Assembly (NCBI GenBank): GCA_008501765.1
Contig: QQUE01000007.1
Span: 62,001 to 126,000 of the forward strand
Direction of reading: 5' to 3'
Length of the DNA stretch: 64,000 nucleotides
Source of the DNA: Calditrichota bacterium
GTDB taxonomy: Bacteria > Zhuqueibacterota > Zhuqueibacteria > Zhuqueibacterales > Geothermadaptataceae
In this document: piece by piece, positions 2,390 through 17,261 of the stretch
How positions within the stretch are numbered: position 1 is the stretch's first letter
Layout: every line of letters starts with the position of its first letter
The notes under the pieces: model-generated
Database searches by the model: none
The model's input: the letters and a program-made list of their open reading frames with translations, nothing else
Told to the model about the DNA's origin: nothing
Position numbers and translations under genes: made by a program

Positions 2390-2482
2390 ATGAATATGAT
2401 CTTTTCCGTTTCCTACAACTTTTATTGGTCTTTTATCTGGTATTATAACGGAAGTGGGAAAAGATTATCTGAATTTGGCTGA
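2390..2482 (+). CDS. Aromatic amino-acid leader peptide MNMIFSVSYNFYWSFIWYYNGSGKRLSEFG
   Basis: 30-codon ORF upstream of trpE with run F-Y-W-S-F-I-W-Y-Y, followed by alternative RNA hairpins and an intrinsic terminator. Confidence 0.7.
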   Translation: MNMIFSVSYNFYWSFIWYYNGSGKRLSEFG

Positions 2483-2505
2483 TCAAAAAAAGTCGTAAAA
2501 TAGAT

Positions 2506-2545
2506 AAAAATCCCACTCTGGTTTAACCTGGTGGGATTTTTTTTT
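2506..2545 (+). terminator. Attenuator terminator upstream of trpE
   Basis: AAAAATCCCAC (2506-2516) pairs with GTGGGATTTTT (2531-2541), followed by a T run. Confidence 0.8.
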
Positions 2546-2599: not shown

Positions 2600-4084
2600 A
2601 TGCACATTCAACCGCAAACATTTTCCGAATTTCAACAGCAGGCTTTGCACGGCAACGTGATTCCTGTTGCAGAAAGTATTTTAGCGGACTTGCTTACGCC
2701 AGTCTCTGCATATTTACGACTCTGCAAAAACTCGGAAGACAGCTTTTTATTGGAGTCTGTTGATGGCGGTGAGAATGTAGCGCGCTATTCATTTCTCGGG
2801 CACAATCCGCGCGAATGGATAAAAACAGATGGCCGAACAGTCACCGTGCGGACAGCAGAAAATGAGCAGCAATTCGATACCGATATATTTAGCTTCCTAA
2901 AATCGATGTTGACCAAATACAAATTCGTTTCGCGGGATGATTTGCCTCGTTTTTCTGGCGGACTTGTCGGCTTTTTCGGCTATGATACAGTTCGATTAAT
3001 TGAAGACTTACCGCAATCAAATCCTGTCGATACGAAAGAAATAATTGCCTCCTTTGGTTTGTACGATACGGTTCTCGCTTTTGACCACTTGCGCCAGCAA
3101 ATAATAATTATTGCCAACGCAATTATACCTGAGGGCGGCGATCTCCAATTAGCCTATAAGGATGCCCTGCAACGAATACAGGAAACGCGTGAAACCCTGC
3201 GGCAGCCTGCTGCAATCGAGAGCAGGACAGTCCGGCAACACACGAATGTGCATGCTAATTTTAAGAAAGAAAATTTTTATCAGGCAGTTAAAACCGCTAT
3301 CGAATATATTCGAGCCGGAGATATTTTCCAGGTCGTTCTGTCGCAACAGTTTTCCCGGGCAGTTGCCGCTGATCCTTTTGATATTTACCGCGCATTGCGA
3401 TTGATTAATCCTTCACCATATTTATTCTATCTGCAAAACCAGGCTCAAGCAATCATTGGCGCCAGTCCGGAAATGTTGGTACGGGTTGAGGACCGTGAAG
3501 TGACCGTACGCCCCATTGCCGGCACACGGCCGCGTGGCAAAAGCATCGAAGAAGATCTGCGCCTTGAAAAAGAACTGCTTGCCGATGAAAAAGAGCGGGC
3601 AGAACATGTCATGCTGATGGATCTCGGCCGCAACGACGTTGGCCGGGTGGCCGAATACGGCGGCGTGATTGTCACTGAAAATATGGTTATCGAGCGTTAT
3701 AGTCATGTTATGCACATCGTCTCCGAGGTGCGCGGCAAGCTGCGCCCGGAGTTTGATGCCATCGATGCTTTTAAGGCCTGTTTTCCGGCGGGCACCCTTT
3801 CCGGTGCACCGAAAGTACGTGCCATGGAAATAATTGAAGAGTTGGAGCCGAACCGCCGGGGAGTTTATGGCGGCGCTTTGGGATATATCGATTTTTCGGG
3901 AAATATGGATACCTGTATTACGATTCGCACATTGGAAGTACGCGCAGGTATGGCGTATTTTCAAGCCGGTGCCGGTATCGTGGCGGACTCGGTGCCGGAG
4001 TCTGAGTTTGCGGAAACTGTACACAAATCCAATGCGGTGCGGTCGGCCATCGCTCTTGCTGAAGCTGGACTGGATAATTTATAA
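2600..4084 (+). CDS. trpE: Anthranilate synthase component I
   Basis: Chorismate-binding motifs (PIAGTRPRG, FKACFPAGTLSGAPKVRAMEII, GAGIVADS); first gene of trp order. Confidence 0.95.
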   Translation: MHIQPQTFSEFQQQALHGNVIPVAESILADLLTPVSAYLRLCKNSEDSFLLESVDGGENVARYSFLGHNPREWIKTDGRTVTVRTAENEQQFDTDIFSFLKSMLTKYKFVSRDDLPRFSGGLVGFFGYDTVRLIEDLPQSNPVDTKEIIASFGLYDTVLAFDHLRQQIIIIANAIIPEGGDLQLAYKDALQRIQETRETLRQPAAIESRTVRQHTNVHANFKKENFYQAVKTAIEYIRAGDIFQVVLSQQFSRAVAADPFDIYRALRLINPSPYLFYLQNQAQAIIGASPEMLVRVEDREVTVRPIAGTRPRGKSIEEDLRLEKELLADEKERAEHVMLMDLGRNDVGRVAEYGGVIVTENMVIERYSHVMHIVSEVRGKLRPEFDAIDAFKACFPAGTLSGAPKVRAMEIIEELEPNRRGVYGGALGYIDFSGNMDTCITIRTLEVRAGMAYFQAGAGIVADSVPESEFAETVHKSNAVRSAIALAEAGLDNL

Positions 4085-4132: not shown

Positions 4133-4708
4133 ATGAAAATACTTGTCATCGACAATTTTGATAGCTTCACTTACAACCTTGTGCAATATTTTGGTGAACT
4201 TGGTGCTGAACTTACCGTTTACCGCAACGATCAGATTGAGATTGAAGAAATACGCACAAAAAATCCGGATGGCATTCTCATATCTCCGGGGCCGGGGGTG
4301 CCGGATGGAGCCGGTATCACGCTGAAAACAATTCGCTCGTTTTCCGGTGTGATCCCAATTCTGGGCGTCTGTCTCGGCCACCAGGCAATCGGGCAAATTT
4401 ATGGTGGCAAAGTTGTTCGCGCACCCGAATTGATGCATGGCAAGGTATCGGAAATATTCCACAATAACCAGGGGCTGTTCAAAAATCTCCCCAGTCCGTT
4501 CATCGCCACGCGATACCACTCACTGATTGTAGAAGAAAGTTCGTCGCCCGCATGTCTCAAAATCACGGCACGAACAGAAAACGGTTTAATCATGGCCTTT
4601 GAGCACGAATCGAATCCGGTCTTTGGTGTTCAATTTCACCCTGAATCAATTTTAACTGAACACGGAAAAGCTTTACTGCAGAATTTTTTAGAAATAATTG
4701 AGAATTAA
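4133..4708 (+). CDS. trpG: Anthranilate synthase component II (glutamine amidotransferase)
   Basis: IDNFDSFTYNLVQY, GVCLGHQAIG, FGVQFHPESILT class I amidotransferase motifs. Confidence 0.95.
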   Translation: MKILVIDNFDSFTYNLVQYFGELGAELTVYRNDQIEIEEIRTKNPDGILISPGPGVPDGAGITLKTIRSFSGVIPILGVCLGHQAIGQIYGGKVVRAPELMHGKVSEIFHNNQGLFKNLPSPFIATRYHSLIVEESSSPACLKITARTENGLIMAFEHESNPVFGVQFHPESILTEHGKALLQNFLEIIEN

Positions 4709-4760: not shown

Positions 4761-5783
4761 ATGCTTAAAAATGCAATAAATAAAGTGATACAGTTTCAAA
4801 ATTTGACGCAAAAAGAAGCATTTAATGCCATGGAAATAATAATGTCCGGACAGACTTCTGAAGCACAAATAACAGCATTTCTTGTCGCATTGCGCATGAA
4901 AAATGAGACGGTCGAAGAAATAACAGGTTTTGCGGAATGCATGCGTAAATTTGCAACCCCGGTGCAGGTTGATCTTGCAAAAAATCCAATCGATATCGTC
5001 GGCACTGGCGGCGATGGAAAACATACATTTAATATTTCGACAGTTTCAGCACTTGTTATCGCCGGCGCCGGGGTGCCGGTCGCCAAACACGGCAATCGTT
5101 CAGTTTCCAGTAAATGTGGTAGCGCCGATGTGCTGGCTGAGCTCGGTGTCAAAACCGACTTGAGCGCCGAGCAGATGGGGCATTCTATAAAAGAAACTGG
5201 AATTGGATTTCTCTTTGCACCAATGCTGCACCCGGCGATGAAATATGCCATCGGACCACGGCGTGAATTGGGGGCGCGAACCGTGTTTAATATTCTTGGG
5301 CCGATCACCAATCCTGCCGGAGTGAAACGCCAAATTATCGGTGTATACGATGCATCGCTAATGCAGCCTCTTATCGAAGTATTGCAGGCCCTAAAATCAG
5401 AGCATATTCTCATTGTGCACAGCGACGATGGACTCGATGAAATATCCATAGCGGGACCGACGTACATTGTAGAATTGAAAAACGACGAAATTTCATCGTA
5501 CAGCATCACTCCCGAAGAACTGGGATTAACACGGGATTCAGGCAGTATTACAGGCGCTGATGCCGTTGAAAATGCCCGTATGGCAAAAGATGTACTTTCC
5601 GGGGCACCGGGTCCGACACGTGATATTGTCTTGGCAAATTCGGGTGCAGGAGTTTATGTCAGCGGACAAGTTGAAAGTATTGCTGACGGAGTAAAAAAAG
5701 TTGCTCAGAGCATAGATTCTGGCGCAGCACTGAATAAACTGGAGCAGTTGATTGGGGTATCACAGAATTTGGGTAGCTCATAA
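4761..5783 (+). CDS. trpD: Anthranilate phosphoribosyltransferase
   Basis: GTGGDGKHTFNISTVSA, AKHGNRSVSSKCGSADVLAELG motifs. Confidence 0.95.
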   Translation: MLKNAINKVIQFQNLTQKEAFNAMEIIMSGQTSEAQITAFLVALRMKNETVEEITGFAECMRKFATPVQVDLAKNPIDIVGTGGDGKHTFNISTVSALVIAGAGVPVAKHGNRSVSSKCGSADVLAELGVKTDLSAEQMGHSIKETGIGFLFAPMLHPAMKYAIGPRRELGARTVFNILGPITNPAGVKRQIIGVYDASLMQPLIEVLQALKSEHILIVHSDDGLDEISIAGPTYIVELKNDEISSYSITPEELGLTRDSGSITGADAVENARMAKDVLSGAPGPTRDIVLANSGAGVYVSGQVESIADGVKKVAQSIDSGAALNKLEQLIGVSQNLGSS

Positions 5784-5799
5784 ATAGAATCGAAAATAA

Positions 5800-6600
5800 A
5801 TGCAAACGATACTACGCAAAATCATCGAACACAAGAGAAGAGAAGTCGCGGCACAGCGCAAAAAGATTACAATTGCCGAGCTTGAAATTCAACTGCAGCA
5901 TTCCCTCGAAACGCGGTCATTAGCTGAAGCTCTAACTACACCTGCCGAGCTTTCCGTGATAGCAGAGGTGAAAAAAGGCTCGCCTTCGGAGGGCACTATT
6001 CGTGAAGATTTCGATCCGGTATCGATCGCGCAACAATACTCGAAAAATGGTGCCCACGCGCTCTCGGTTCTCACAGATGAAAAATTTTTTCAGGGACATT
6101 TGCGTTTTATCTCGGCGATCCGCCCCCATGTCGCCATTCCTGTTTTACGCAAAGATTTTATTATCGATGAATATCAACTCATCGAAACGCGAGTTGCCGG
6201 AGCTGATGCTGTTTTGCTCATTGTTGCAGCATTATCACGGGATGCCTTGCGGCATTATTTGAGAATTGTTCATGAATTAAAAATGGAAGCTATTGTCGAA
6301 GTCCACAACGAAATGGAGATGGCGCGCGCACTGGAAACAAGCGCAAAAATTATTGGCATCAACAATCGCAATCTCGACACTTTTAAGACCGATTTGGCCG
6401 TGACCGAAAAACTGGCGCCTATGGTGGGAAAGGAGCGAATAATTGTGGGCGAAAGTGGAATTTCAACACAGGACGACCGCCGCCGCATGTCTGCTGCCGG
6501 GGTGCAGGCTGTTTTGGTCGGCACTCATTTTATGAGGCAAAATGACCCCGGAGTGGCCTTGGCAAATTTCAGGCAGATTTTGGTAAACAATGAAAATTAA
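5800..6600 (+). CDS. trpC: Indole-3-glycerol phosphate synthase
   Basis: AEVKKGSPSEG, VLRKDFIIDEYQ, GINNRNLDTF, GESGI motifs. Confidence 0.95.
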   Translation: MQTILRKIIEHKRREVAAQRKKITIAELEIQLQHSLETRSLAEALTTPAELSVIAEVKKGSPSEGTIREDFDPVSIAQQYSKNGAHALSVLTDEKFFQGHLRFISAIRPHVAIPVLRKDFIIDEYQLIETRVAGADAVLLIVAALSRDALRHYLRIVHELKMEAIVEVHNEMEMARALETSAKIIGINNRNLDTFKTDLAVTEKLAPMVGKERIIVGESGISTQDDRRRMSAAGVQAVLVGTHFMRQNDPGVALANFRQILVNNEN

Positions 6601-7252
6601 AGTTTGTGGTATTACTCGAACAGCCAATGCGTTAAAAGCCGTCCGGCTCGGTGCCGATGCGCTGGGGTTTATTTTTTATCCCGCCAGTCCGCGTTATATT
6701 TCGCCGCAAAATGCAGCAAAAATATCCACTGAAATTCCTGAAAGTGTAACACGGGTTGCAGTCTGTGTTAAACCAAACTTGGCATACATCGCCGAATTAG
6801 TGGACATTTTCAAATTTGATGTACTGCAAATTCATGGTGACTTTTCGCCATCGTACCTGGCAAATTTTAAAAATTACACAGTCATTCCAGCCCTGCAGGT
6901 TGGAACGGACTTTTCGATGGGGGCTGTTGAGAATTTTATTTCGGAATCAGCAGCCGTTCTTTTGGATACACAGAAAAATGGGCACTATGGTGGAACGGGC
7001 GAGGCTTTTGATTGGAATTTAACCAAAGCAAGAAACGATAATATTCGATTGATTCTGGCGGGTGGATTGAACCCGAACAATATAATTGCTGCGGTAAAAA
7101 CGGTAAAACCATTTGCCGTCGATTTGAATAGTGGTGTTGAAATATCTCCCGGAATCAAAGATCATAAAAAACTTGAAATTATATTTGATAAACTGAAGGA
7201 AATACGCGGTGAACAGCAATTTGATCAAAAAAAATGCGGCCTTTTTGCCTGA
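6590..7252 (+). CDS. trpF: Phosphoribosylanthranilate isomerase
   Basis: KVCGITR start motif, [27 protein letters not shown]; overlaps trpC by 11 nt. Confidence 0.93.
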
Positions 7253-8435
7253 TAAAAATGGGCGGTTTGGAGATTACGGCGGACGATTTGTGCCGGAAAT
7301 TCTTATGTCTGCAATCACTGAACTCGAGCAGGAATATGAAAAAGCTAAGGATGATCCGGAATTTCATAAATTGCTCAGTTATCTACACGCGGAATACACC
7401 GGCCGACCTAATCCTTTGACCTATGTTGATCGATTGACAGAAGAAACCGGGGGAGCAAAAATCTATTTGAAAAGGGAAGATTTGAACCATACCGGAGCGC
7501 ACAAAATTAATAACGTTCTCGGACAACTATTACTTGCACGACGCATGGGTAAACAACGAATTATCGCTGAAACCGGGGCGGGGCAACACGGTGTGGCCAC
7601 GGCTACTGTGGCAGCGAAATTCGGTCTTGAATGCCAGGTTTACATGGGAGAAGTAGATATCGAAAGACAGCAGCTCAATGTTTTTCGCATGGAATATTTG
7701 GGTGCAAAGGTAATCGCAGTCAAGTCAGGGAGTCGCACTTTAAAAGATGCAATTAACGAGGCAATTCGCGATTGGGTTACCAACGTGAAAAATACATTTT
7801 ATTGCATCGGATCGGTAGTCGGGATGCATCCATATCCGATGATTGTGCGTGATTTTCAATCGATAATTGGGCAGGAGACCAGGGAGCAGCATTTAAAAAA
7901 AGAAGGGCGGCTTCCCGATGCGGTTGTGGCATGTGTCGGCGGTGGATCCAACGCAATGGGCATGTTTTATCCTTTTATTGAGGAGAAAAATGTGCAACTG
8001 CATGGGGTCGAAGCGGGTGGACGGGGGCCCGATGTTGGTGATCATGCGGCTACTTTAACATATGGCGAACCCGGTATTTTGCATGGCATGTTAACCTACA
8101 TGCTGCAAACCGAGGACGGTCAGGTCGCTGACGTGCATTCAATCTCCGCCGGTCTGGATTATTCCGGTGTCGGCCCGGAACATTCGTGGTTAAAAGATAC
8201 AGGCCGTGCAAATTATACCTCTGTCACTGATGCGCAGGCGCTTGAGGCGATGGCCTTGCTTTCATGCAGCGAAGGCATAATTCCGGCACTTGAAAGTGCC
8301 CACGCTGTTGCCTACGGATTAGAGCTCGCAAAAACGATGCGGCCTGACCAATCAATCGTCATTTGTCTGTCCGGGCGCGGCGACAAAGATATGGAATCTG
8401 TATTTGCACTCGCTGAAAAGGGGGTGATTGCATGA
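7209..8435 (+). CDS. trpB: Tryptophan synthase beta subunit
   Basis: [56 protein letters not shown] start implies a 44-nt overlap with trpF. Confidence 0.95.
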
Positions 8436-9235
8436 ATAATTTACGGACACTGCTTGAGGCAAAAAAATCAAAAAACGAAAAAATTCTCTCCATTTATTTG
8501 ACCGCAGGTTTTCCCGATCCGCAGACGACTTTGCTGCTACTAAAAACACTTGCCGAAGCTGGTGTTGACTTGATTGAGCTGGGCGCCCCGTTTTCTGATC
8601 CCCAGGCTGATGGGCCGGTCATTCAGGATGCTTCGCAGCAGGCATTGCGAGCAGGAATGAAAATTCCAGCCCTTTTTCCAATTATCAAAGAATTTCGCCA
8701 GGTTTCCGATGTACCTGTGATTCTCATGGGTTATGCCAATCCATTTATGAAATACGGCTGGCAGCGCACGGTAGACGAAGCCGTCGCTGCTGGCGCCAAT
8801 GGTTTTATAATCCCTGATTTACCACCGGAAGAGAGTCGTGATTTCCGGGAAAAATGCCGGAAAGCAGAGCTTGACCTCATTTTTCTCGTCTCGCCAGTCA
8901 CGACTGTTGAGCGTATTGCAGCAATCAGTAAAATGACCACCGGATTTATTTATGCAGTCTCAGTCGCTGGCGTTACAGGGGAGCGGCAGCATCTTCCAGA
9001 TGCAACCACGATGTTTTTGCATCGCTTACGGGAACAGACATCACAGCCAGTTCTCGTGGGATTTGGTGTTTCAAACAGCGAAACCGCTAAAAACCTTGCC
9101 CGCATCAGTGATGGAGTCATAATTGGGAGCGCAATTATTCGTCTCATTTCTGAGTCAAAAAATACCAAGGAATCCTGTGAAAAAGTAAGTGATTTTGTTC
9201 GGAAAATAAAGCTTGGATTGGGAGAATGCGCATGA
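8432..9235 (+). CDS. trpA: Tryptophan synthase alpha subunit
   Basis: [42 protein letters not shown] overlap with trpB. Confidence 0.95.
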
Positions 9236-9534
9236 AAGAAATTGCTGATTGGCGGCTAAAAATTGATGAAGTTGATGCGGAAATTTTGCAACTGTTGAAC
9301 AAACGGGCCGGTTTTACGGTAGCGATTGGGCACATTAAAAGAAAGTTCGATATGCCGATATATGACCCTGCCCGGGAGAAAAAGATATTGCATGCCCTGG
9401 CTGAGAAAAATCCCGGACCGCTGTCAGAAAAAGCCATTCAACGATTATTTGAACGGATCATCGATGAGTCGCGGCAGTTGGAAAAACATGCCAGTCTCGG
9501 ACTGGGCGATGATATGTCAAATAAAGAAGAATAG
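9226..9534 (+). CDS. Chorismate mutase (AroQ-class helical domain)
   Basis: WRLKIDEVDAEILQLLNKRAGFTVAIGHIKRKFDMPIYDPAREKKIL. Confidence 0.88.
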   Translation: MRMKEIADWRLKIDEVDAEILQLLNKRAGFTVAIGHIKRKFDMPIYDPAREKKILHALAEKNPGPLSEKAIQRLFERIIDESRQLEKHASLGLGDDMSNKEE

Positions 9535-9596: not shown

Positions 9597-10610
9597 ATGG
9601 TCATCGTGATGAATAAAAATGCAACCCAGGCTGAAATTGAAAATGTGGTGGCCACACTCATCGACAAAAATTTTGATGTGCACCGGTCGACGGGCATCAG
9701 TCGCACGGTAATTGGTGCTATCGGCGATAAGCAGGCGTTTGATGAGCGGGAATTTCTCGTTTTGGATGGCGTGAGTGAAGTCGTTCGAATTACCGAGCCA
9801 TACAAGCTGGCCAGCCGCACTTTTCAGCAGGAAGATACGATTATTAAAATCAAAGATGTACAAATAGGCGGTGACGAAGTTGTGGTTATGGCCGGCCCTT
9901 GCGCGGTCGAAAGTGCGACGCAAATAGAAACGATCGCGGCTGAAGTTAAAAAGGCTGGCGCCAAAATATTGCGTGGTGGTGCATTCAAACCACGCACATC
10001 GCCCTATTCTTTTCAGGGATTGGGCGAAGAGGGGCTGCAACAAATGCGCTCAGCGGCTGATAAAAATGATTTGCTTGTGGTATCTGAAATAATGGATCGA
10101 TCTCAGGTTAAAATTATGGTAAAATATTGCGATATTTTACAGGTTGGTGCGCGGAACATGCAAAATTTCGATCTATTAAAATCGTTGGGAAAAATCGCCA
10201 AGCCGATTTTATTAAAACGCGGCATGTCGGCGACCATCGAGGAAACGTTGATGTCAGCCGAGTATATAATGTCAGGGGGAAATTATCAGGTGATAATTTG
10301 TGAGCGCGGCATCCGCACCTTTGAAAAATATACCCGCAATACAATGGATATTTCTTCGATTCCGGTAATACAGAAATTGAGCCATTTGCCAATAATTGCT
10401 GATCCCAGCCATGGAACCGGCATCCGAAATAAAGTAGCCCCGATGGCCCGTGCTGCTGTGGCAGCCGGCGCACATGGTCTGCAAATCGAAGTACACAACG
10501 ATCCGGATCATGCGGCATCAGACGGCGCCCAATCGCTTTATCCCGAGCAGTTTGCCCATTTGATGAAAGAATGCCGTTTGATCGCAAACGCGATCGGTAA
10601 AAAAATGTAG
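9597..10610 (+). CDS. aroF: 3-deoxy-7-phosphoheptulonate synthase with N-terminal ferredoxin-like regulatory domain
   Basis: MAGPCAVES, RGGAFKPRTSPYSFQGLGEEGL, DPSHGTGIR motifs. Confidence 0.93.
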   Translation: MVIVMNKNATQAEIENVVATLIDKNFDVHRSTGISRTVIGAIGDKQAFDEREFLVLDGVSEVVRITEPYKLASRTFQQEDTIIKIKDVQIGGDEVVVMAGPCAVESATQIETIAAEVKKAGAKILRGGAFKPRTSPYSFQGLGEEGLQQMRSAADKNDLLVVSEIMDRSQVKIMVKYCDILQVGARNMQNFDLLKSLGKIAKPILLKRGMSATIEETLMSAEYIMSGGNYQVIICERGIRTFEKYTRNTMDISSIPVIQKLSHLPIIADPSHGTGIRNKVAPMARAAVAAGAHGLQIEVHNDPDHAASDGAQSLYPEQFAHLMKECRLIANAIGKKM

Positions 10611-10685
10611 GACGAAGAAAACAGGCAAATGGGAAAAATGTTCAGGTAAATTAAGACATTCTTGACAAACGGAATTAATTACATT

Positions 10686-11780
10686 ATGGGAATTCAAGTC
10701 ACAGTTGTTGGTGTTGGCCTCATCGGGGGTTCTTTATGCAAGGCATTTAAACGTGTTATGCCCGAAGTGCAATTGACCGGTGTCGACTGCTCTGAAGTCA
10801 TTGATTATGCACTCAAAGAAGCGATTATTGATACCGGGTATTTATCCGAACAATTGGAAACAGTGTGCGAAAAAGCTGATTTTATTTTCATTGCGACACC
10901 CCCTAAAATTGCATTGAAACTATTACCAATCATTGCAAAAAACTGTAAACCAAAATGCATAGTTACGGATGTGTGCAGTATTAAAAATGATCTCATGCAA
11001 TGTGCCAGAGAAAATTTTGCTGATTCCTCCGGCGTGTTTATCGGCGGTCATCCCATGGCCGGGACGGAAAAACCTGGAATTGAATCATCAGATCCATATT
11101 TATTCGAAAACGCCATTTATGTTTTAACACCAAATGGCTTTGAATCACAAAAAGCAGTAAAAAAATTGGCTGGGCTGATTGAAAAAACTGGCGCTTATAT
11201 TTTGCTGTTGAGCGCTGACGAACACGATAAAATTGCCGCCGGCGTCAGCCATTTGCCGCAAATGTTAGCGCTCACACTGATGCTTTACATCGCTGAGAAA
11301 AATAATGAAAATGATATTTATTTGAAAATGGCAGCCGGTGGTTTTAGGGATATGACTCGCATAGCATCGAGCCCTTTTGCCATTTGGCAGGATATATGTG
11401 ATGGCAATCTCAGCAAGATTTTAGCAGAAATTGATGGCTTTTCCGCGGCATTGGCAAACACACGCCGGCTCCTCGTCGAAGGGGCACTTGAAACAAGTTT
11501 CGCTGAATCTGCACACAGCCGACTCGCGATTCCGAAGGATTCCCGTGGGTTTATGACTCCCAATTTCGATTTATCCGTTGATGTGCAGGATCATTCCGGT
11601 GTTATTGCAAAAATTGCAAATGTGCTCGCTGATGCTCAAATTAACATTCGGGATATCGAAGTTCTGAAAGTGAGGGAAGACGAAGGTGGGACATTACGCC
11701 TGTCATTTGAATCGGAAAAAGCACGGAAGCAGGCGAAATCAATCCTGCAAAAAGAAGGACATGTTTGCCATAACAGATGA
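10686..11780 (+). CDS. tyrA: Prephenate dehydrogenase with C-terminal ACT domain
   Basis: GVGLIGGSLCKAFKR Rossmann motif, GGHPMAGTEKPG, C-terminal DHSGVIAKIANVLADAQINIRDIEV. ORF track starts 10662; ATG at 10686 gives the natural N-terminus. Confidence 0.88.
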   Translation: MGIQVTVVGVGLIGGSLCKAFKRVMPEVQLTGVDCSEVIDYALKEAIIDTGYLSEQLETVCEKADFIFIATPPKIALKLLPIIAKNCKPKCIVTDVCSIKNDLMQCARENFADSSGVFIGGHPMAGTEKPGIESSDPYLFENAIYVLTPNGFESQKAVKKLAGLIEKTGAYILLLSADEHDKIAAGVSHLPQMLALTLMLYIAEKNNENDIYLKMAAGGFRDMTRIASSPFAIWQDICDGNLSKILAEIDGFSAALANTRRLLVEGALETSFAESAHSRLAIPKDSRGFMTPNFDLSVDVQDHSGVIAKIANVLADAQINIRDIEVLKVREDEGGTLRLSFESEKARKQAKSILQKEGHVCHNR

Positions 11781-11810: not shown

Positions 11811-13094
11811 TTGAAACTCCATAAAGTAGGCCGGTTGCATGGTGAATTACACGTGCCCGGCGATAAATCCATTTCTCAGCGGGCATTGCTGTTCGCGGCT
11901 TTGGCCGAAGGCACGAGTAAAATTACCGGTCTTTCGGAGGCTGACGATGTGCAAAGTATGGCCGCGTGCCTGCAGCAACTCGGAGTCAAAATCGAACAAA
12001 AAAATGGCATCTGTTACGTCCACGGCCGCGGATTGCATGGATTAAGAGCACCAGCAGGCGCATTGGATTGCGGTAATTCTGGTACGACAATGCGACTACT
12101 CGCAGGTGTGCTGGCCGGACAAAATTTCGATTCGGTGCTAATTGGCGACCACAGTCTCAACAGCCGCCCGATGCGGCGCATTGTTGAGCCGCTCGCTTCA
12201 ATGGGAGCGGAGATTGAAACCGCTGCGGAGGGCACAGCCCCGTTAAAAATTCATGGCAAGAAACTGCGGGGAATTACCTATGCTTTGCCGGTGGCGTCGG
12301 CCCAGGTAAAATCCGCAGTTCTGTTGGCAGGGCTGTTCGCTGACGGCAAAACTGTGGTTATTGAACCTGAGCAGTCACGTGACCACACTGAAATCATGAT
12401 GGCAGCCATGGGCGTTTCGGTGACGCAAAACAATTCCGAGATCAGGCTCGGAGCCGAACGTTTGCAAGCAACAGAAATCGAAATCCCGGGAGATGTCTCA
12501 GCGGCAGCCTTTTTTATCGTAGCTGGATTGATTGTTCCGGACAGCGAAATAGTCATTAAAAATGTTGGATTGAATCCAACGCGCAGTTATCTTATCGACC
12601 TGTTAAAACAGGCCAACGCCCAAATTGAAATACAAAATAATCGAAATGCGAACGGCGAACTAATTGGTGATTTAAAGGTTTACTCAAGCTCTGTCAATGG
12701 ATTTACAGCGAGCGGGGCTGAAATTCCATTGCTCATCGATGAAATTCCAGTGCTGGCCGTCCTTGCAACCCAGGCTCGTGGTCGAACTCGCTTTCGCGAC
12801 GCGAAAGAATTGCGTGTCAAGGAATCCGATCGAATTGAGGCAATTGATATTAATTTACGGAAATTGGGTGTGCAATTAGAAACTTTTGCAGATGGTTTTA
12901 AAATTGTTGGACCACAGGAATTGCATGGCGGATTAATAAACACATTTCAAGATCACCGCATCGCAATGGCATTCGCGGTAGCATCGCTTATTGCCAGCGG
13001 TGAAACTGAAATTTCGAATGCACATGTGGCCACAGTCTCGTTTCCTGATTTCTTTGATAAATTACGGCATTTGAGTAGACAGGAATGGCACTGA
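11811..13094 (+). CDS. aroA: 3-phosphoshikimate 1-carboxyvinyltransferase (EPSP synthase)
   Basis: PGDKSISQRALLFAALAEG, DCGNSGTTMRLLAG, RVKESDRIEA, FQDHRIAMAF. Confidence 0.95.
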   Translation: MKLHKVGRLHGELHVPGDKSISQRALLFAALAEGTSKITGLSEADDVQSMAACLQQLGVKIEQKNGICYVHGRGLHGLRAPAGALDCGNSGTTMRLLAGVLAGQNFDSVLIGDHSLNSRPMRRIVEPLASMGAEIETAAEGTAPLKIHGKKLRGITYALPVASAQVKSAVLLAGLFADGKTVVIEPEQSRDHTEIMMAAMGVSVTQNNSEIRLGAERLQATEIEIPGDVSAAAFFIVAGLIVPDSEIVIKNVGLNPTRSYLIDLLKQANAQIEIQNNRNANGELIGDLKVYSSSVNGFTASGAEIPLLIDEIPVLAVLATQARGRTRFRDAKELRVKESDRIEAIDINLRKLGVQLETFADGFKIVGPQELHGGLINTFQDHRIAMAFAVASLIASGETEISNAHVATVSFPDFFDKLRHLSRQEWH

Positions 13095-13931
13095 ATGCGA
13101 TTTAAAAAACCACTCGGCGTTATTGGGACACCGATATCTCATTCACTGTCGCCACTATTGCACAATTATCTTGCAAATGAATACGAATTACCATTTCAAT
13201 ATTCCGCCTACCATGTGGATAAAATTTCACTAGAAGATGCTATTTCTGGCGCACGGGCATTAGGGTTCAGAGGATTGAATGTCACCGTGCCCCACAAAAA
13301 AAATATCATGCCTTTTCTTGATGAAATTGACGAATTCGCATTAAAAACGGGTGCAGTGAATACAGTACTTTTTGAAGATGAATTTACCACTGGATACAAC
13401 ACCGATATTTTCGGATTTCTCGATAGTTTGGCGATTGAATCTGTCGATCTTTCAGGAAAAAATGTTATTGTTTTAGGCGCAGGTGGAGCGGCTCATGCCA
13501 TCGTTTTTGCAGCGAAAAATGCTGGAGCGAGAACAATAAATATTGTCAATCGGACGCATGAAAAAGCAGTTGATCTGGCCCAAAAAACAGGATGCGAAGC
13601 GATAAATTTCTCAAAATTTACAGAAACCCCAACAGGCGACGTTGTTATAAATACCACTTCAGTGGGAATGTATCCCGAAGTTACGAAATGCCCTGTACCA
13701 CAATCTGTGTTCCGGGAAAAATGTGTTTATGTAGATATTGTGTATAATCCTGGTTTAACCCAGTTTTTGAAATTTGCCCACGACAGCGGGGCTAAAATAG
13801 TCAGTGGGATAGGGATGTTAATTTTTCAGGGCATTATGGCTATGGAAATTTGGTCTGGAGTAAAAATTGACCGTCAAAAACATTTTGAACCACTGAAAAA
13901 ACTACTGGTAAATGCGATTGAAAACCAATAA
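13095..13931 (+). CDS. aroE: Shikimate dehydrogenase
   Basis: GVIGTPISHSLSPLLHN, GLNVTVPHKK, GAGGAAHAIVFA. Confidence 0.95.
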   Translation: MRFKKPLGVIGTPISHSLSPLLHNYLANEYELPFQYSAYHVDKISLEDAISGARALGFRGLNVTVPHKKNIMPFLDEIDEFALKTGAVNTVLFEDEFTTGYNTDIFGFLDSLAIESVDLSGKNVIVLGAGGAAHAIVFAAKNAGARTINIVNRTHEKAVDLAQKTGCEAINFSKFTETPTGDVVINTTSVGMYPEVTKCPVPQSVFREKCVYVDIVYNPGLTQFLKFAHDSGAKIVSGIGMLIFQGIMAMEIWSGVKIDRQKHFEPLKKLLVNAIENQ

Positions 13932-14005
13932 TATCCCGCAGTGTTTGATTATTCTATATTTGATACATTTAGCATCTCGATTTGAATGATTAGTTAGGAA
14001 ATTTA

Positions 14006-15199
14006 ATGCCGCACTTACGCTATTTTACAGCAGGGGAATCTCACGGACAGGGGCTGGTTGGCATCCTCGAAGGACTGCCTGCCAATGTTGCAATCTCAAT
14101 CGAAAAAATTAATCAGCAGCTTGCTCGCCGGCAGCAAGGTTACGGTCGCGGTGGCCGGATGAAAATCGAGACCGATCAGGTGCAGATTCTCAGCGGTATT
14201 CGGCATGATAAAAGTTTGGGCAGCCCTATCAGTTTTTTAATCCAAAATCGTGATTGGAAAAACTGGGATAAAATAATGGCAGTTTCTGGCACAAATCCGC
14301 AGAAAAAAATTGTCGAAGTGCCACGCCCCGGGCATGCAGATTTGAGCGGTGCCATCAAATATGATCAATCGGATATGCGCAATATTCTCGAGCGTGCTTC
14401 GGCTCGGGAGACCGCAACCCGTGTGGCTTTGGGGGCAATTGCACGGCAATTTCTTGACGCATTGGGAATTGGAATCGCCAGTCATGTTATACAAATTGCC
14501 GAGGTGAAATCTGAAAAAACATTGATTGATTTTGGTTCGGTTGATTTCAACTTTGATTTAAAAAATCTCAATGAAATTGCTGATGCTTCGCCAGTTCGAT
14601 GTGTTGATAAAACTACTGCAGAAAAAATGATGGAAACCATTGATTCAGCGAAATCGAACCGCGATACTTGTGGTGGAATTTTTGAGGTGGTGGCGTTTAA
14701 TTTACCAGTGGGCCTCGGCAGCCATGTTCACTGGGATCGCCGCCTTGACTCCCAAATTGCAGCGGCAATGATGGGCATTCAAGCCATGAAAGGCGTGGAA
14801 ATCGGAGATGGGTTTGGGGGTGCATGCCGTTTTGGTTCGCAGGTGCACGATGAGATTTATTATGACCGCAGCGAAAACAAATTTTACAGAAAACAAAATA
14901 ATGCAGGTGGCCTGGAAGGTGGCATGACCAACGGGATGCCGGTGGTAGTACGCGTTGCGATGAAGCCGATTGCCACACTCATGCAACCGCTCGATTCTAT
15001 TGAATTAGAAAGCAAAAAGTCAGTCACTGCGCACGTTGAACGCTCGGATGTCACCGCTGTTCCCGCAGCAGCGGTAATCGGCGAGGCCATGCTAGCGCTC
15101 ACTATCGCAGGCTCGGTTTTGGATAAATTTGGCGGCGACTCTTTCGGTGAAGTTAAAAAGCGTTACGATGGTTGGCTGGAGTACACGAGCAACCGATGA
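14006..15199 (+). CDS. aroC: Chorismate synthase
   Basis: RYFTAGESHGQGL, RRQQGYGRGGRMKIE, RASARETATRVA, GGLEGGMTNG. Confidence 0.95.
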   Translation: MPHLRYFTAGESHGQGLVGILEGLPANVAISIEKINQQLARRQQGYGRGGRMKIETDQVQILSGIRHDKSLGSPISFLIQNRDWKNWDKIMAVSGTNPQKKIVEVPRPGHADLSGAIKYDQSDMRNILERASARETATRVALGAIARQFLDALGIGIASHVIQIAEVKSEKTLIDFGSVDFNFDLKNLNEIADASPVRCVDKTTAEKMMETIDSAKSNRDTCGGIFEVVAFNLPVGLGSHVHWDRRLDSQIAAAMMGIQAMKGVEIGDGFGGACRFGSQVHDEIYYDRSENKFYRKQNNAGGLEGGMTNGMPVVVRVAMKPIATLMQPLDSIELESKKSVTAHVERSDVTAVPAAAVIGEAMLALTIAGSVLDKFGGDSFGEVKKRYDGWLEYTSNR

Positions 15200-15744
15200 A
15201 AATGAAACGGAAACATATTTATCTCCTCGGATTTATGGGATGCGGCAAATCTACTTTGGGCAGAAAACTAGCGCAAGCGTTAGACATGCCATTCGTTGAC
15301 ACCGACATTATGATAGAAGTTAAAGCAGGAATGAGTGTGACGACTATTTTCGCCCAACTGGGTGAGACGAAATTTCGCGAGCTGGAAAAAGAAATACTTA
15401 TTGATTTGGCTCAAAATTGGGAGGAAGACAGTGTCGTGGCCCTCGGTGGTGGAACTCCGGCGCAGATTGGGGCGTGGCCATTGCTGCAGGCCAGCGGAAC
15501 GACTGTCTACGTTGAACGCACCCCAGAACAACTGTACAATCATGTTCGTTTTACCAATCGCCGCCCAGTTCTGCAAGAAGTAAAACAGGAGGAATTGCTC
15601 GGGCATATTGAAAAATTGTTGGAGAAAAGAGTGACCAATTATTTAAAGGCGGATCACATATTTAATTGCAAAGATGAGTGGGGAGTTGACGAAACCATCG
15701 ATCATTTAGTCAAATTGCTGAAGAAATCAGATGAAGAAAATTGA
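15172..15744 (+). CDS. aroK: Shikimate kinase
   Basis: LLGFMGCGKSTLGRKLA, VDTD, FRELEKE, ALGGGTP; likely start at an internal Met (MKMKRKHIYLLGF). Confidence 0.92.
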   Translation: MAGVHEQPMKMKRKHIYLLGFMGCGKSTLGRKLAQALDMPFVDTDIMIEVKAGMSVTTIFAQLGETKFRELEKEILIDLAQNWEEDSVVALGGGTPAQIGAWPLLQASGTTVYVERTPEQLYNHVRFTNRRPVLQEVKQEELLGHIEKLLEKRVTNYLKADHIFNCKDEWGVDETIDHLVKLLKKSDEEN

Positions 15745-16594
15745 TATTATACACGGCCCCAATTTAAACTTGTTGGGTTCGCGAGAGACGGAAATTTATG
15801 GAACAGAATCCCTCGAATCGATTAATAGTTATGTTAATTCAGCGGCTGAAGAATATGGGATTGCGTTCGATTTCTTTCAATCCAATCATGAAGGGCAGAT
15901 AATCGATCGTATTCACTCAGCAGAAAATAATGTCGATGGAGTTGTGATCAATCCGGCTGCCTTCACTCACTACAGCATTGCCATCCGCGATGCCATTGCG
16001 GCAATCAAAACACCGGTAGTTGAAGTGCATTTGACAGATATTTCCCAACGAGAAGCTTTCCGGAAAATCTCCGTAAGTGCCGATGTCTGCGTTGATCAGA
16101 TTTGTGGATTTGGCAAAAATAGTTACTTTTTTGGAGTTGAAGCTTTGGTCGGCCATTGGGCAGTAAATCGCATTCGAACAGAAAATAGTTCTACGCCAGA
16201 CAACGATAAACTTTTACGCTCGGTTGTGGAAATCTTGCACGAATCTTTTCCGAAATACGACTGGACCGGGATTTATTTGGTTGATGGCGATGCATTGGTT
16301 TTGCATAATTTCCAAGGGGCGCCATCGCCACACACACGCATTCCAATTGGGCAGGGCATTTGTGGCGCTGCTGTTGCGGAAGAAGAATCGATCATCGTTC
16401 CAGACGTCAATGCTGATCCGCGTTATCTTGCATGCAGCATCGAAACAAAATCTGAAATTGTCGTGCCGATTTATAGTGGAAAAAATATTATCGGTGAAAT
16501 TGATATCGACAGCCACCGGCCGGATGTTTTTCATAAACACGATCAAAAATTTCTGGAGCAAGTTGCTGCTGTAATAGGGGAGAAGTGGAAATAA
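15731..16594 (+). CDS. aroQ: Type II 3-dehydroquinate dehydratase fused to a C-terminal GAF/fRMsr-like domain
   Basis: N-term HGPNLNLLGSRETEIYG, FFQSNHEGQIID, INPAAFTHYSIAIRDA; C-term YDWTGIYLVDGDALVLHNFQG...IPIGQGICGAAV...RYLACSIETKSEIVVPIYSGKNIIGEIDIDS. Confidence 0.9.
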   Translation: MKKIDIIHGPNLNLLGSRETEIYGTESLESINSYVNSAAEEYGIAFDFFQSNHEGQIIDRIHSAENNVDGVVINPAAFTHYSIAIRDAIAAIKTPVVEVHLTDISQREAFRKISVSADVCVDQICGFGKNSYFFGVEALVGHWAVNRIRTENSSTPDNDKLLRSVVEILHESFPKYDWTGIYLVDGDALVLHNFQGAPSPHTRIPIGQGICGAAVAEEESIIVPDVNADPRYLACSIETKSEIVVPIYSGKNIIGEIDIDSHRPDVFHKHDQKFLEQVAAVIGEKWK

Positions 16595-16652: not shown

Positions 16653-16656
16653 CATG

Positions 16657-16728
16657 TGACCCCTAGGGGGCTCGAACCCCTGTTGCAGGAATGAAAGTCC
16701 TGAGTCCTAACCACTAGACGAAGGGGCC
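16657..16728 (-). tRNA. tRNA-Glu (TTC)
   Basis: Minus strand GGCCCCTTCGTCTAGTGGTTAGGACTCAGGACTTTCATTCCTGCAACAGGGGTTCGAGCCCCCTAGGGGTCA; cloverleaf, loop CTTTCAT. Confidence 0.95.
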
Positions 16729-16851
16729 ATGGTTAAAAGCAAGGTGCAAATAATAATTAATTTCGTGTAAAATGTCAATGAATAAATCTAATAGATTAAC
16801 GGTCTGAATATGAAATTAATCGCATGCAAAAAAATATTCTTATTCAAATTA

Positions 16852-16884
16852 AAAAAGGCCACTCAAAAATGAGTAGCCTTTTAA
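16852..16884. terminator. Hairpin upstream/downstream of duplicated tRNA-Glu
   Basis: AAAAGGCCACTCAAAAATGAGTAGCCTTTT, similar to 16619-16652. Confidence 0.55.
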
Positions 16885-16886
16885 TG

Positions 16887-16958
16887 TGACCCCTAGGGGG
16901 CTCGAACCCCTGTTGCAGGAATGAAAGTCCTGAGTCCTAACCACTAGACGAAGGGGCC
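16887..16958 (-). tRNA. tRNA-Glu (TTC), second identical copy
   Basis: Same 72-nt sequence as 16657-16728. Confidence 0.95.
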
Positions 16959-16990
16959 ATCAAAACTCAAAATCAAATTGTAAAGAAAAG

Positions 16991-17064
16991 GGTGAGCGAC
17001 GGGACTTGAACCCGCGGCCACCAGAGCCACAATCTGGCGCTCTACCACCTGAGCTACGCCCACC
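16991..17064 (-). tRNA. tRNA-His (GTG)
   Basis: GTGGGCGTAGCTCAGGTGGTAGAGCGCCAGATTGTGGCTCTGGTGGCCGCGGGTTCAAGTCCCGTCGCTCACC with G-1/C73. Confidence 0.94.
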
Positions 17065-17092
17065 ATTTAAAGACTTCCGCCTTCTATTTTAG

Positions 17093-17166
17093 TACGCCAG
17101 AGGGGAATCGAACCCATAACCTACGGCTTAGAAGGCCGTTGCTCTATCCGGTTGAGCTACTGGCGC
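17093..17166 (-). tRNA. tRNA-Arg (TCT)
   Basis: GCGCCAGTAGCTCAACCGGATAGAGCAACGGCCTTCTAAGCCGTAGGTTATGGGTTCGATTCCCCTCTGGCGTA. Confidence 0.94.
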
Positions 17167-17186
17167 TTTTTAAAAAAATGTGAATG

Positions 17187-17261
17187 TCGGGGCAGCAGGA
17201 TTCGAACCTGCGACCCCCTGGTCCCAAACCAGGTGCGCTAACCGGACTGCGCTATGCCCCG
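17187..17261 (-). tRNA. tRNA-Pro (TGG)
   Basis: CGGGGCATAGCGCAGTCCGGTTAGCGCACCTGGTTTGGGACCAGGGGGTCGCAGGTTCGAATCCTGCTGCCCCGA. Confidence 0.94.

Follow-up and report, generated by a model that had tools for sequence, protein, structure and literature searches.

A leader peptide with Phe, Tyr and Trp codons and a predicted attenuator precede a fused trp–aro operon in a Calditrichota bacterium

Introduction

Among the closest described systems is the trpL attenuator of Escherichia coli and other bacteria, which, like the locus reported here, combines a leader peptide, four alternating RNA segments and an intrinsic terminator before trpE. Here, however, Tyr and Phe codons join those for Trp, the operon runs on into chorismate mutase (CM), DAHP synthase (DAHPS), tyrA and aro genes, and RNA segment 1 lies 5′ of the control codons, whereas in trpL it lies within them. 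The E. coli pheA and pheST attenuators (pheL) also join a Phe-codon leader peptide to an attenuator, but for one amino acid and other genes. Leaders with several specificities are known from the enterobacterial ilvGMEDA (Ile/Val/Leu) and thrABC (Thr/Ile) operons. There, as here, a single leader contains codons for several amino acids, all products of one operon, although these are branched-chain amino acids or Thr and Ile rather than aromatics. Control by T-boxes and by TRAP is established for trp or aro genes in Firmicutes.

Leaders and supraoperons are also known for the aro genes. The aroR leader of Corynebacterium glutamicum (Phe-Tyr-Phe), 5′ of aroF, is reported to respond to Phe and not to Tyr (PMC11802643). 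It is an aromatic-codon leader before a DAHP synthase operon and is close to the separate aro leaders described below, but neither Trp codons nor trp genes are part of it. In Bacillus subtilis, too, trp and aro genes are transcribed together, as a trp/aro supraoperon (PMC1173090). It is controlled by the TRAP protein and not by a leader peptide. Attenuators predicted before aromatic supraoperons have been reported without leader analysis (PMC1173090). A Phe/Tyr/Trp leader was not described in any paper met in a literature search whose coverage of comparative studies of proteobacterial attenuators was thin, and the papers searched likewise gave no account of such regulation in this phylum. The mechanism we propose is itself known, as classical ribosome-mediated attenuation; what is new is that the predicted specificity covers several aromatics and is linked to the fusion of operons.

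The leader region and its promoter

The window, by which we mean the whole 64-kb stretch of DNA analysed, contains a promoter, a leader ORF, a terminator and trpE (from 2600) in this order, all on the + strand. The features of the leader region are:

2322–2350, + strand: sigma-70-like promoter, TTGACA (2322–2327), 17-nt spacer, TATCTT (2345–2350), about 39 nt 5′ of the leader ATG
2390–2482, + strand: leader peptide ORF MNMIFSVSYNFYWSFIWYYNGSGKRLSEFG, 30 codons (ORF; same-place leaders in relatives)
2420–2446, + strand: control codons F-Y-W-S-F-I-W-Y-Y, unique in the window, their composition tracking operon content
2396–2413, + strand: RNA segment 1, partner of segment 2 (folding and pairing tests)
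2450–2471, + strand: RNA segment 2, AGTGGGA (2453–2459), with second stem TTATCT (2465–2470) (folding and pairing tests)
2502–2517, + strand: RNA segment 3, AGATAA (2502–2507) and TCCCACT (2511–2517) (pairing tests)
2530–2545, + strand: RNA segment 4 (GGTGGGA) and T-run (2537–2545), intrinsic terminator (sequence, folding, relatives)

The short ORF between promoter and first gene is rich in codons for the amino acids that the operon makes. The first-pass annotation had described the run FYWSFIWYY at these coordinates and counted two Trp, four Tyr and five Phe codons; re-reading the sequence returned the same run, coordinates, Trp and Tyr counts, while a direct count gave four Phe codons (F5, F11, F15 and F29). 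When scored as at least seven aromatics per nine residues, including at least two W, one F and one Y, such a run occurs once in the six frames of the window and in none of 40 dinucleotide shuffles. No Shine–Dalgarno sequence was seen before the leader in this genome, and many genes of the operon also have none. A promoter of the form TTGACA-N16/17-TA(T/C)NTT lies 24–48 nt 5′ of the leader ATG in all relatives of families f1 and f7 and in genome G013.

The operon downstream of the leader

The genes from trpE to aroQ share one strand, neighbours overlapping or standing a short distance apart:

2600–4084, + strand: trpE, anthranilate synthase component I (TIGR00564, above cut-off)
4133–4708, + strand: trpG (TIGR00566, above cut-off)
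4761–9235, + strand: trpD, trpC, trpF, trpB and trpA (NCBIfam TIGR01245, NF001377, NF002298, TIGR00263 and TIGR00262, above cut-off)
9226–9534, + strand: chorismate mutase (CM_2), overlapping the end of trpA (PF01817)
9597–10610, + strand: DAHP synthase, type I beta, with ferredoxin-like regulatory domain (NF006421 and TIGR01361 above cut-off; PF00793, PF18152)
10662–11780, + strand: tyrA, prephenate dehydrogenase with ACT domain (PF02153, PF20463, PF01842)
11811–16594, + strand: aroA, aroE, aroC, aroK and aroQ-GAF (PF00275; PF08501/PF01488; PF01264; PF01202; PF01220 + PF01590)

These profile searches agree with the shikimate, Trp and Tyr steps first assigned to the operon and give it as trpEGDCFBA-CM-DAHPS-tyrA-aroAECKQ. 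Terminator-like sites inside it number 15 on both strands against a shuffle mean of 15.2, with no excess. Prephenate dehydratase (pheA) and aroB are elsewhere in the genome, and no comparable leader was visible by eye 5′ of either. We dropped the idea that the operon holds the only DAHP synthase of the genome: because there are two further candidates (G000:C14:393333-394073 and G000:C4:5369-6673), one type I-like and one class II, it is not the sole entry to the pathway.

Alternative pairings in the leader RNA

The core of segment 2, AGTGGGA, is a perfect complement of TCCCACT in segment 3, and the antiterminator has a second stem between TTATCT (2465–2470) and AGATAA (2502–2507). Segment 3 plays a double role, as the 3′ arm of the antiterminator and the 5′ arm of the intrinsic terminator, which spans 2506–2541 and is followed by nine T's (2537–2545). 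The first-pass annotation had drawn this 2:3 complement together with the 1:2 and 3:4 pairings and the T-run, and sequence and folding reproduce all of them. The 161-nt leader RNA has a folding energy of −43.7 kcal/mol (z = −4.0); among 200 shuffles, one was equally stable. The T-run lies about 55 nt past the leader stop codon, with similar spacing in relatives.

A leader ORF followed by a terminator lies 5′ of trpE in the nearest families, f1, f7 and f2 (genus g5). Ten further fused-type genomes of the f1/f7/f2 clade have a leader in the same place. G024 has one too, about 700 nt 5′ of trpE with a tRNA-Trp gene between. This tRNA gene (CCA; L010:3464-3537 / L057:5580-5653) is placed between the attenuator terminator and trpE and is followed by a GxxExxY-like gene; from this position it may be transcribed only when the attenuator is open. 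The genomes compared were mostly drafts.

Using 13 leaders, we compared the energies of each genome's own segment pairs with those of pairs exchanged between genomes over 20,000 permutations. Own pairs were more stable for 1:2 (mean −18.0 versus −12.2 kcal/mol when swapped), 2:3 (−17.6 versus −11.8) and 3:4 (−19.1 versus −13.0). None of the 20,000 permutations was as good for any of the three (each p about 5e-5, an optimistic value because some of the sequences are closely related). Compensatory changes, counted in cells, were 13 (2:3) and 24 (3:4), numbers that no slid register came near. One position is G-C in most genomes and A-U in G010 and G011, with the matching change in segments 2, 3 and 4. 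Shuffle tests within single genomes gave mixed results for the 13 leaders (p from 0.002 to 0.27 for 2:3, and weaker for 1:2), so that the case for the pairings rests on comparison between genomes. Such conservation of the leader ORF and of all three pairings, on which the first-pass annotation had made its reading depend, is borne out: leaders recur in relatives, the partner swaps favour all three pairings, and 2:3 and 3:4 show compensatory changes as well. The 2:3 antiterminator is mutually exclusive with 1:2 and 3:4.

Leader codons and operon content across the phylum

We sampled 31 trp loci of the class, another 18 from elsewhere in the phylum and that of a single f2 genome, and surveyed DAHPS in 82 genomes; the DAHPS contig of G014 was excluded as probable contamination (GC-rich, other neighbours). 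Mean codon counts, taken over the best 14 residues of each leader, differed with the arrangement of the genes. Where the trp operon stands alone or with a divergent DAHPS, the leaders contain Trp runs (n = 19; 3.5 W, 0.7 Y, 0.9 F). Separate CM-DAHPS-tyrA-aro operons have leaders of their own (n = 29; 4.4 Y, 3.7 F, 0.2 W), and fused trp–aro operons have mixed leaders (n = 11; 3.7 Y, 2.9 W, 1.9 F). Two or more Trp codons in the run were found in 0 of the 29 separate aro-operon leaders (29 genomes), and a merged Tyr/Trp(/Phe) leader in all ten genomes with verified fusion. Fusion was verified for 10 of the 11 fused leaders; the contig of G031 ends early, and its congener G037 is fused. In each of the 12 genomes where both separate leaders were seen, W codons lie at trp and F/Y codons at aro. 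The filter for separate aro ORFs does select leaders as such through its requirement for aromatic density, but it weighed F, Y and W alike, so the scarcity of Trp in these leaders is not a selection effect.

In f2 genus g4, where the operon is without the aro part, the leader reads CWWRQWWR or CSWGHWWR in place of FYWSYWYWR on the same skeleton. The most telling comparison is that of G008 (RFYWSYWYWRQRGHGGNC) with G010 (AMCWWRQWWRTPGHDGNC), which have this RNA skeleton in common; G010 has no aro genes after trpA, and its run has kept Trp codons and has no Tyr or Phe. Fused leaders hold codons for more than one amino acid made by the operon, conserved together with the same operon, although Phe is weak in f7, whose runs have just 0–2 Phe codons. 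That mixed codons would suit a mixed operon, as first proposed for this locus, holds across the phylum (W with trp only, F/Y with aro only, F/Y/W when fused). Since the merged leader joins codons that are split between two leaders in two-operon relatives, sensor specificity appears to follow operon gene content.

The Phe/Tyr leaders of separate-aro relatives lie with a terminator 5′ of CM or DAHPS, for example MKYNFYNYYYFYFYFGSSGRD and MFYFFYNYYFYFTCSGKG (loci L190-L193, L198, L203, L205-L211, L214-L217, L219-L223, L225-L228, L230, L231 and L234), and apparently constitute a second predicted attenuator outside any Rfam family. The Trp-only leaders of f8, f6, f5, f11 and f9 are followed by two tandem terminators (L021-L030, L024 apart), as in CGCCGTGG..CCACGGCG-T then GGCGCTGTG..GCAGCGCC-T. 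A contig scan gave matches solely from distant phyla, at no more than 53% identity (80 loci). The ORFs listed for these loci include no mixed leader, but a few loci, such as L085 (Bacteroidetes) and L147 (Balneolaceae), have W-run trp leaders.

History of the leader

In the TrpE tree f1 and f2 are sisters, with f7 next. Two changes of operon type can be placed on this tree, and the leader type changes at these two points as well. With just two independent changes the association of codons with content cannot reach significance in an independent-pairs test, and we regard the sequence comparison as consistent with it rather than as statistical proof. The fused terminators (CCCAC/GTGGG) are nearer by mean score in terminator alignments to the aro than to the trp terminators of the phylum in 11 of 11 cases, the best match of this genome having a small margin (aro 26 versus trp 25). 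This suggests that the fused leader descends from an aro attenuator to which Trp codons were added. Tentatively, a three-input OR gate may have been born when the trp operon came under the aro attenuator, with the skeleton kept, Trp codons added, and codons rewritten as operons fused or split.

Proposed mechanism and its alternatives

We propose, with good confidence, that a trp-type ribosome-mediated attenuator controls the fused trpEGDCFBA-CM-DAHPS-tyrA-aroAECKQ superoperon and is opened when charged aromatic tRNA is short. The trp attenuator logic first proposed for the locus has the support of the conserved leader, terminator and alternative pairings. With Trp-, Tyr- and Phe-tRNA all charged, the ribosome would pass smoothly through the leader, 1:2 would re-pair behind it, 3:4 would form and transcription would end at 2537–2545. 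If the charged tRNA for one aromatic were scarce, the ribosome would stall in FYWSFIWYY, between segments 1 and 2, freeing segment 2 to form 2:3, so that no terminator would arise and the operon would be transcribed. Lack of any single aromatic amino acid should be enough, as in an OR gate. Genome comparison shows, at the sequence level, a leader and a terminator, three alternative pairings and a match of codons to content; from these we infer that ribosomes stall, that transcription terminates and that Trp, Tyr and Phe each elicit a response of their own, Phe being the least certain.

The geometry of the leader can be set against a ribosome footprint of about 30 nt, from −14 to +15 around the P site, which we assumed throughout. 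The aromatic codons then fill the interval between segments 1 and 2 almost exactly to the limit at which segment 2 would be masked; a ribosome halted on the final Tyr codon of FYWSFIWYY would start masking it, and one at the stop codon would stand just past the segment 2 core. In several trp-only leaders (e.g. G042, G049, G064 and G065) the UGG run is itself segment 1, an arrangement also seen in E. coli. In fused leaders segment 1 is 5′ of the control codons, which are thus free to vary.

We counted against this explanation the location of pheA elsewhere, the few Phe codons of f7, the leader without a Shine–Dalgarno sequence and the two changes on the tree. The alternative to be taken most seriously keeps a working attenuator and narrows its response to Trp, alone or with Tyr; Phe codons, and possibly a share of the Tyr codons, would then be passengers in an AT-rich genome. 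TTT and TAT are indeed frequent in AT-rich DNA, Phe codons are as few as 0–2 in f7 leaders, and the presence of a codon is no proof of sensing, since the Tyr codons of C. glutamicum aroR give no response to Tyr availability (PMC11802643, citing Neshat 2014). Yet F and Y are dense only where CM-DAHPS-tyrA is in the operon. The AT-rich trp-only leaders of f8 and f6 have few of them, and they are missing from the g4 runs, whose operon is without the aro part. We therefore hold the narrower response to be possible but doubtful.

A conserved aromatic-rich peptide 5′ of an aromatic operon might also act as a TnaC-like nascent-chain arrest sensor of a free aromatic amino acid rather than of charged tRNA. 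However, the peptide is variable save for its aromatic identity and the residues set by segments 1 and 2 (SGK, ST), and a ribosome arrested by free Trp would switch the operon on in Trp abundance, opposite to what a biosynthetic operon needs. We hold this reading to be very improbable. We give very little credence to control by another leader RNA (T-box, riboswitch or TRAP-type protein) with an incidental ORF: T-boxes and TRAP do govern trp or aro genes in Firmicutes, but Rfam matches are absent from the leader here and from the trp and aro leader loci of relatives. No family of Rfam 15, Trp_leader (RF00513) and T-box included, matched the leader in the window at the gathering threshold. Ten trp loci searched to E = 1 and ten DAHPS/aro loci searched to E = 0.1 likewise gave no leader match. 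It is scarcely credible that the hairpin is just the terminator of a transcript from upstream and that the ORF is a chance frame. Short AT-rich ORFs are frequent and this one has no Shine–Dalgarno sequence, but its run has no second occurrence in the 64 kb and does not turn up in any of the 40 shuffles, and the element is kept in f1, f7 and f2 with a covarying antiterminator and a conserved promoter 5′ of it.

Read as attenuators, the leaders of the phylum form a natural series, from Trp-only and Phe/Tyr-only through merged and back to Trp-only, and the sensor specificity that their codons spell out can be set against operon content. The series shows how a sensor built on codons may be adjusted as operons merge, and it allows multi-input attenuation to be tested by codon swaps in a small RNA element.

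Minor features of the operon

The last gene of the operon is a fusion of aroQ (type II dehydroquinase) with a GAF domain (15731–16594 in the window), the GAF part of which we presume to resemble free methionine-R-sulfoxide reductase. The extended aroQ frame is also present in fused-operon genomes (L050, L052, L056 and L059) and is absent in three of three separate aro operons checked (L190, L191 and L192). Directly past the operon, five tRNA genes (Glu, Glu, His, Arg and Pro) lie on the minus strand at 16656–17261.
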